From Pyrococcus sp. NA2 (GTDB taxonomy: Archaea; Methanobacteriota_B; Thermococci; Thermococcales; Thermococcaceae), in the NCBI RefSeq assembly GCF_000211475.1, contig NC_015474.1, positions 1,550,001 through 1,614,000 of the forward strand: 64,000 nucleotides of DNA, read 5' to 3'. Shown in pieces: positions 11,058 to 36,372 of this stretch. The position numbers and the translations under genes are program-made. Numbering within the stretch: the first letter of the stretch is position 1; each line of letters starts with the position of its first letter. Under the pieces are notes generated by a model. That model did no database searches and had not been told where the DNA came from. It saw only the letters and a list, made by a program, of their open reading frames with translations.

Positions 11058-11972
11058 ATGATGTACACAATTGGAGAGGTTCTAATAGATCTTATAGCGA
11101 GGGAAGAAGGAGATCTAGGTAATGTTAGGGTGTTTGAGAAGCATCCAGGAGGAGCACCGGCAAATGTTGCTGTGGGGCTTTCGAGGCTCGGTATAAGACC
11201 AGCTTTGATAAGTAAAGTTGGGGACGATCCTTTTGGAGACTTCCTCGTTGAAAAGTTAAAGGAAGAAGGTGTTGAAACAAAGTTCATAGTGAAAGATAAA
11301 GAGAGGCATACGGGGGTAGTTTTTGTTCAGCTTATAGGGGCAAAGCCTCAATTTATCCTCTATGATGGGGTTGCCTACTTTAATCTTAAAGAGGAGGACA
11401 TTGATTGGTCTTTTCTTGACAATGCTGAGTTGCTGCATTTTGGAAGTGTTTTATTAGCTAGAGAACCTGCCAGATCTACCCTTTTTAAGATACTTAAAAG
11501 AGCGAGGAACGTCATTGTAAGTTACGATGTCAACATAAGGGAAGATCTATGGAGGGGAAAAGAAGATGAAATGACAGATTACATAAACAAGGCTATTGAC
11601 TTTGCAAATATTGTAAAGGTGAGCGAAGAGGAGTTTAAATACATAAGGGAAGTAGAAGATAAACTCTTGATAATAACAAGGGGAGAAAGGGGATGTACAA
11701 TAATCTGGGAGAATATGAAAGTTGAAGTCCCGACATTTAAGGTTACTCCCGTGGATACGACTGGAGCTGGAGATGCATTTATGGCTGGATTCCTGGCTTC
11801 CCTTAATTACATGGGAAAGCTGGAGAATTTTACATTCTCAAGAGATGAGCTAATAGAAGCAGGAAAATTTGCAAATCTAGTTGCGTCCTTATCAACAACT
11901 AAGAGAGGAGCCTGGAGTGCTCCAACTCTTGAAGAGGTTAAAAAGCATGGAAGTTTCAGCTTTTTACCATAA
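11058..11972 (+). CDS. PfkB-family sugar kinase (fructokinase-like)
   Basis: A 304-residue ribokinase-family enzyme. The N-terminal signature GGAPANVAVGLSRLG (near residue 31) and the C-terminal DTTGAGDAF motif, with the catalytic Asp, are intact. It closely resembles Pyrococcus fructokinase-type proteins such as PH1459, so phosphorylation of fructose or a related ketose is likely. The frame is open upstream to 10917, but homology begins at MMYTIGEVLIDLI, so ATG 11058 or 11061 is the start. It converges on mptE, with 17 bases of 3' overlap. Confidence 0.85.
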   Translation: MMYTIGEVLIDLIAREEGDLGNVRVFEKHPGGAPANVAVGLSRLGIRPALISKVGDDPFGDFLVEKLKEEGVETKFIVKDKERHTGVVFVQLIGAKPQFILYDGVAYFNLKEEDIDWSFLDNAELLHFGSVLLAREPARSTLFKILKRARNVIVSYDVNIREDLWRGKEDEMTDYINKAIDFANIVKVSEEEFKYIREVEDKLLIITRGERGCTIIWENMKVEVPTFKVTPVDTTGAGDAFMAGFLASLNYMGKLENFTFSRDELIEAGKFANLVASLSTTKRGAWSAPTLEEVKKHGSFSFLP

Positions 11973-12666
11973 GCTCTTCAAAGAACTTAACTTCAGCTTT
12001 TCCATTGTTCTTAAGCCATTCCAAGAGCTCTTTGGCAAATTCAAGCTTCTTTCTTTTCTCCTCCCAAGCATCTATATGATCGTTAAGCCATGGTTTGCTC
12101 CACTTTCCAACCTTCCCTGAGAAGTCAAAGCCCACAAGGATTATCTCTTTTGCTCCAAGCTCCTCAGCTAAGAATGCCCCTCTATCCCCATCGGTAAAGC
12201 CACCAAAGTTGTAGATTATGTCTAGAGGTTCAGTTTGACACGTTCCAAGAACGAGAGGAAAGTTCACAACGAGGGGCAGTTTATCGATATTATCCCCATG
12301 GGCATGGACAACCATTACCGCTCTCCTGGAAGCCTCAAGTAGATCCCTTATTCTTCCATCTAAATCTGTTACAACGACATCTGGAAAAATTCCATTCCTT
12401 AATAGTGCTGTAGTTGCTCCATCTGCTGCTATCTTGGTTCCATCTGAGAAATCCCAGCTTTTAAGTTCTTCTTCTAAATTAGGGCCTGCACCGAAAACGT
12501 ACACTTTTTCCATAATTACAGAATTAAGTTCTTCTTTAATTATGTAATTGTCGTTTTCAATAAGTATTGCCCTGAGAATCTCTGCTGCCTCTCTATCCTT
12601 CTCAATGGAATAACCCATCTCCCTAACTATCCTCTCATAAAAGGGTTTCCATTCTTCCCACTTCAT
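11956..12666 (-). CDS. mptE: 6-hydroxymethyl-7,8-dihydropterin pyrophosphokinase, archaeal MptE type
   Basis: A 236-residue DUF115 protein. Visible motifs are VFGAGPNLEEEL near residue 52, AADGATTALL near residue 79, and PDVVVTDLDG near residue 95, which form the nucleotide and metal site of archaeal MptE. The reaction is transfer of pyrophosphate from ATP to 6-hydroxymethyl-dihydropterin, an early step of the archaeal modified folate. An RFAP-synthase-family gene at 29147 acts later in the same pathway. Its ATG lies about 30 bases from the start of a divergently transcribed guide RNA, so their promoters interleave. Confidence 0.85.
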   Translation of the reverse strand: MKWEEWKPFYERIVREMGYSIEKDREAAEILRAILIENDNYIIKEELNSVIMEKVYVFGAGPNLEEELKSWDFSDGTKIAADGATTALLRNGIFPDVVVTDLDGRIRDLLEASRRAVMVVHAHGDNIDKLPLVVNFPLVLGTCQTEPLDIIYNFGGFTDGDRGAFLAEELGAKEIILVGFDFSGKVGKWSKPWLNDHIDAWEEKRKKLEFAKELLEWLKNNGKAEVKFFEELMVKS

Positions 12667-12695
12667 GCTTTTAAATTAGGAGGAGATATTAAAAA

Positions 12696-12757
12696 GTGAA
12701 CCGATGAGGAGCGAGCCCGGCCCTGAGTGATGATGAGAGCTACCACTACTGAGGTTA
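12696..12757 (+). ncRNA. C/D box guide sRNA for 2'-O-methylation
   Basis: The order and spacing fit an archaeal C/D sRNA exactly. C box ATGAGGA (12704-12710, one mismatch to RTGATGA), 12-nt guide GCGAGCCCGGCC, D' box CTGA (12723-12726), 3-nt spacer, C' box ATGATGA (12730-12736), 12-nt guide GAGCTACCACTA, D box CTGA (12749-12752). AACC before the C box pairs with GGTT after the D box to give the terminal stem. A TATA-like CTTTTAAATT at 12667-12676 lies about 25 bases before the predicted 5' end. Both guides place a G as the methylated base. Its 3' end touches the stop codon of the convergent gene at 12755. Confidence 0.85.
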
Positions 12758-13231
12758 TTCAAAGAAAGCTCCCATGCTCTCCGCTTCCTCATCTGTAAGA
12801 CCCTTAACCTTAAACTCTGGCATTTTATCCTTGAGCTCCTCGTATTCTTCCCTGCTTATCTCCCTGGGTTCGCCGTTCTTAATGTGAAAGTAAACTCCAA
12901 CGTCGTTCTTATAAGCCAAAACGAACTCTCCGCTTTCAACGTTATCGAAGTCAACTAAAATTAAGTTCCCGCCTGTAAATGGCTTCTTGCACTTAAATGG
13001 AACGTTTGCAGAATTCAGCATGGCATCTCCAAGAACAAGGTTAGCTTTCATTCCATTTATCTCCGTATAGAATTGCTTACCTTCGAAGTCCCCTTCGATG
13101 ACTATGAGCTTTTTAATTCCCTCAAGCTCTATTACTGGAGCTCCTTTCTTCTTAAGAATGGAAAACAGTTCTTCAATCGTTTCGGCGTTTCTTAGGCTTG
13201 AAACTAACCCTTCTACCTTCACAAGCTTCAC
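12755..13231 (-). CDS. Conserved Thermococcales-type protein of unknown function
   Basis: A 158-residue acidic, soluble protein, alternating strands and helices, without membrane segments or metal motifs. The C-terminal part is rich in Glu and Asp (EISREEYEELKDKMPEF). I do not recognise a family. It ends at the 3' edge of the C/D sRNA and has its own promoter region at 13232-13296, which separates it from the ABC genes. Confidence 0.6.
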   Translation of the reverse strand: MKLVKVEGLVSSLRNAETIEELFSILKKKGAPVIELEGIKKLIVIEGDFEGKQFYTEINGMKANLVLGDAMLNSANVPFKCKKPFTGGNLILVDFDNVESGEFVLAYKNDVGVYFHIKNGEPREISREEYEELKDKMPEFKVKGLTDEEAESMGAFFE

Positions 13232-34493: not shown

Positions 34494-36328
<1,835 letters not shown>

Positions 36329-36372
36329 TTCAGCTGGCTTGCTATTCATCATCACCCATTAGGTGACTAGTC

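Follow-up and report, generated by a model that had tools for sequence, protein, structure and literature searches.

An sR47-family C/D box guide RNA of Pyrococcus sp. NA2 with a predicted 16S rRNA target and an ambiguous D' guide

Archaeal C/D box guide RNAs carry the C, D', C' and D boxes in this order, and the stretches of about 10-12 nt preceding D' and D serve as guides. The assembly of L7Ae, Nop5 and fibrillarin on such RNAs, as well as methylation opposite guide position -5, are established for the family. Examples of dual guides whose targets lie close together are known, and archaeal orphan guides are frequent (PMC7994747). A transcriptome study of Thermococcus kodakarensis reports 16 predicted snoRNAs that run antisense over a gene's 3' end (PMC4247193), and for P. 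furiosus a RiboMeth-seq dataset has reportedly been placed in GEO (PMC7758197). Among the families collected in Rfam the closest to the locus presented here is sR47 (RF01131), for which our literature search returned no relevant paper.

In this work, we are presenting an analysis of a small RNA locus in a window of 64,000 nucleotides of the Pyrococcus sp. NA2 genome (contig NC_015474.1, positions 1,550,001 to 1,614,000), where a C/D box sRNA had been proposed from the raw sequence. The RNA matches RF01131 with 69.5 bits (gathering score, 40 bits), which for the window corresponds to E = 1.1e-13. All four boxes follow in the canonical order and are conserved in 25 homologues, both guides are 12 nt long, and a terminal stem allows k-turn closure (Table 1). 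The original prediction was therefore right in calling a C/D box sRNA, and its box order, two 12-nt guides, 3-nt D'-C' spacer, terminal stem and single mismatch in the C box (ATGAGGA instead of RTGATGA) are all borne out. By its sequence the RNA is an ordinary C/D box guide RNA of the heat-loving Pyrococcus archaea and is already catalogued. With high confidence we take it for sR47, whose D guide would address local G505 of 16S rRNA and whose D' guide would address a GCCGGGC site in initiator tRNA-Met (G29), 16S rRNA (local G542) or 23S rRNA (local 751). Two k-turn or k-loop motifs would be bound by L7Ae, Nop5 and fibrillarin would assemble on the RNA, and fibrillarin would 2'-O-methylate the target base opposite position -5. 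Since both guides carry C at this position, the methylated base would be G, in agreement with what had been predicted.

Table 1. Features of the sR47 locus and its neighbours (window coordinates)
Feature	Position	Strand	Basis
sR47 C/D box guide RNA including terminal stem	12699..12756	+	RF01131 12700-12754, 69.5 bits; stem covariation
Terminal stem, 5' arm AACC	12699..12702	+	pairs with GGTT 12753-12756; compensatory changes, 24 distinct homologues
C box ATGAGGA	12704..12710	+	sequence and alignment
D' guide GCGAGCCCGGCC, 12 nt	12711..12722	+	alignment, 25 homologues
D' box CTGA	12723..12726	+	sequence and alignment
D'-C' spacer, 3 nt	12727-12729	+	sequence
C' box ATGATGA	12730..12736	+	sequence and alignment
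D guide GAGCTACCACTA, 12 nt; predicted target 16S local G505	12737..12748	+	pairing comparison
D box CTGA	12749..12752	+	sequence and alignment
Terminal stem, 3' arm GGTT; overlaps the convergent gene's stop codon	12753..12756	+	sequence; covariation
TATA-like box CTTTTAAATTA	12668..12678	+	about 25 nt upstream of the expected 5' end; sequence
Divergent MptE-like 6-hydroxymethylpterin diphosphokinase gene	11956..12666	-	Pfam PF01973, 87.1 bits
Convergent 158-aa protein gene	12755..13231	-	in Pyrococcus its stop codon (12755-12757) touches or overlaps the sRNA

Matches to RF01131 above the cut-off were found in 9/9 Pyrococcus-group genomes searched, and our own sequence model, built from nine orthologues, matched in 60 of 81 Thermococcaceae genomes, the weakest of which may be other C/D RNAs. 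In an alignment of 25 of the best homologues the four boxes and the guide cores are conserved, while the D'-C' spacer and position -1 of both guides vary. The C box reads ATGATGA in many Thermococcus homologues. An alternative register of this box (12701-12707) was rejected, because it would turn into a bulge the invariant CC that base-pairs with the GG following the D box. Compensatory changes are present in the terminal stem across Thermococcaceae: among 24 distinct homologues three pairs are changed on both sides and 11 further pair types occur, a number reached in none of 500 shuffles. In total, 78% of cells are paired, as compared with 30-57% when the arms are slid, and the outer pairs appear as A-U, G-C, C-G, U-A and G-U.

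It could be argued that the resemblance to C/D RNAs is accidental or that the sequence belongs to the 3' UTR of the gene convergent to it, whose stop codon it overlaps, and its single-strand folding energy is ordinary (z = 0.33); unremarkable folding energy is, however, expected of C/D RNAs. The Rfam score together with the homologues in all nine genomes of the genus and the covarying stem speak against chance, and the RNA is kept in genomes lacking the neighbouring genes at the locus. Such conservation outside the local gene context refutes this explanation, which we consider extremely improbable.

The original prediction also assumed perfect 12-mer targets, and here it did not hold. In the whole genome (1.86 Mb, single contig), neither 12-mer was found in rRNA or tRNA with up to one mismatch: GGCCGGGCTCGC occurs only at the sR47 locus, and TAGTGGTAGCTC only there and at one place outside the 16S, 23S and tRNA loci found. 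Actual guide-target duplexes are about 9-11 bp long and involve neither position -1 nor the distal nucleotides of the guide. Targets were therefore scanned by the N-plus-five rule, with contiguous pairing around -5; normally, guide positions -2 to about -11 take part and the base opposite -5 is methylated. For neither guide did SRP RNA, RNase P RNA or 5S rRNA offer a better site.

Among the 16S, 23S, tRNA, SRP RNA, RNase P RNA and 5S sequences of this genome, the best site for the D guide is 16S local G505, located in GAGUGGUGGCC, which from an ungapped comparison with the E. coli 16S sequence we take to be about E. coli G550. In the own genome the duplex comprises 9 bp including one G:U, a score reached by 14/60 shuffled guides and thus not significant, so that the assignment rests on the relatives. 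The guide pairs with this site, with a base pair at -5, in 16/16 species rows compared, the site sequence having been read in 23 genomes. A P. yayanosii-like genome (G008) and two Thermococcus-like ones (G044, G053) have different letters in the D guide, yet form 11 perfect bp with the same site; its score was attained by 0/60 shuffles for G008 and 1/60 for G044. When all 16S, 23S and tRNA sequences of the NA2 genome served as the pool, G505 was ranked first for 8/9 guide variants. The D guide is thus predicted to direct methylation of 16S rRNA at local G505; this target is well supported and stands as the strongest functional prediction of our study.

Assignment of the D' guide is less straightforward. 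Its core GCCCGGC is invariant in 25/25 homologues, and we infer that it pairs with a GCCGGGC-containing site, for which initiator tRNA-Met G29, 16S local G542 and 23S local 751 compete. A 9-bp match to a guide this rich in G+C is not rare by chance, as judged from shuffled guides. Position -9 is G in most other genera, which fits 16S G542 (8 bp) or 23S 751 (8-12 bp).

Guidance to 16S local G542, presumably about E. coli G587, would make the RNA a conventional dual guide with its two targets 37 nt apart, an arrangement for which there is precedent (PMC7994747). Eight contiguous G-C pairs are formed in most Thermococcus and related homologues, whereas in Pyrococcus seven pairs are followed by an A.C mismatch at -9 and then 2-3 more pairs; this mismatch recurs in every Pyrococcus row and pairing at other sites is longer, so we put G542 forward tentatively.

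We have somewhat less than even confidence that the guide either has become an orphan or is directed to 23S local 751 (AGCCGGGCCUCGA). Against the NA2 23S sequence 12 perfect bp were computed for the guide of relative G017 and 9 bp for that of G023, but pairing of the Pyrococcus guide requires a bulged C after 7 bp. The frequency of orphan guides in archaea (PMC7994747) favours the orphan variant; a fully orphan guide is nevertheless disfavoured by the invariant core.

As for initiator tRNA-Met G29, which would turn sR47 into a mixed rRNA/tRNA guide in Pyrococcus, a perfect duplex of 9 bp joins the segment GAGCCCGGC (-10 to -2) to GCCGGGCUC of this tRNA in the Pyrococcus rows of the comparison, where this is the top-ranked D' site, and pairing extends to 10 bp in G008, in which -11 has changed to U. 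A 2'-O-methylation at G29 is reported for the initiator tRNA-Met of Sulfolobus acidocaldarius, while for that of P. furiosus the main-text passages of the same paper mention m7G10 and Cm34 and not G29 (PMC7668247). Moreover, shuffled guides equal the score in 9-20 of 60 trials and the G at -9 in most Thermococcus and related homologues weakens the duplex. We regard this target as rather doubtful, and a shift of the Pyrococcus D' guide from an rRNA site to G29 as unlikely. Should such a shift be true, sR47 would link the modification of 16S rRNA and of initiator tRNA, at a position methylated in the distant Sulfolobus.

Near 16S local 583, compared at the loci L060 and L114-L135, the Pyrococcus sequence reads GGGGCTCGCTGG, as opposed to GGGGCTTGCTGG in the other genera read. 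Nine base pairs can form between the Pyrococcus D' guide AGCGAGCCC and the Pyrococcus version of this site, but so placed that -5 falls on the edge of the duplex, and the match is possibly a coincidence.

The original prediction also placed a TATA box at the right distance and a divergent mptE gene beside the RNA; both were recovered, the gene as a match to the MptE-like Pfam family. The TATA-like box is a candidate promoter element of sR47, although it is not clearly conserved upstream of orthologues. An AT-rich stretch, ATATTAAAAAG (12687-12697), could be the minus-strand TATA box of the MptE-like gene, in which case the promoters of sR47 and of this gene would overlap, facing each other. 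On the other side, the 158-aa protein matched no NCBIfam or Pfam family. Its gene ends at, or no more than a few bases from, the D-box end of the sRNA in 9/9 Pyrococcus genomes, and MptE lies inside the fetched flank in 8/9 of them; neither gene was found within the flanks of the homologues fetched from other genera. The tight contact with the stop codon was thus correctly noticed and even overlaps the terminal stem, but it is not unusual, being conserved in Pyrococcus and reported for Thermococcales (PMC4247193). The sR47 orthologue of one relative (G003) has a CRISPR array of ten repeats (Rfam CRISPR-DR6; L070 2385-3015, minus strand) at a distance of about 0.8 kb, on the side of the MptE-like gene. 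The window holds a second C/D box sRNA at 36302-36356 (minus strand), which matches Rfam sR3 (RF01133) with 50 bits (gathering score, 41).

In most of the complete Pyrococcus genomes RF01131 matches at one further locus, whose guides are different, hence the family lumps two paralogues. In NA2 the second locus lies at G000:C1:826934-826987 (L075 1501-1555, minus strand) and with 61.7 bits also exceeds the cut-off, so that in Rfam the name sR47 covers both groups. The guides of the paralogue fit 23S rRNA sites, and its probable targets are local 571/583 or 1907/1949; the two paralogues probably modify different sites.

A reading of the raw sequence was sufficient to recognise a C/D box sRNA, and what is new here is confined to the improved assignment of the D guide's target, the ambiguous target of the D' guide and the two paralogues within RF01131. 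Compared with known systems, the RNA shares its box framework with sR28 (RF01136), but reaches only 30.7 bits against a gathering score of 39, and likewise stays under the gathering scores of the other archaeal C/D box families of the same framework. The consensus guides of RF01131 are as similar to the paralogue as to the locus described here, while the match to sR47 is full-length (1-55 of 55), with the same box order and spacing.
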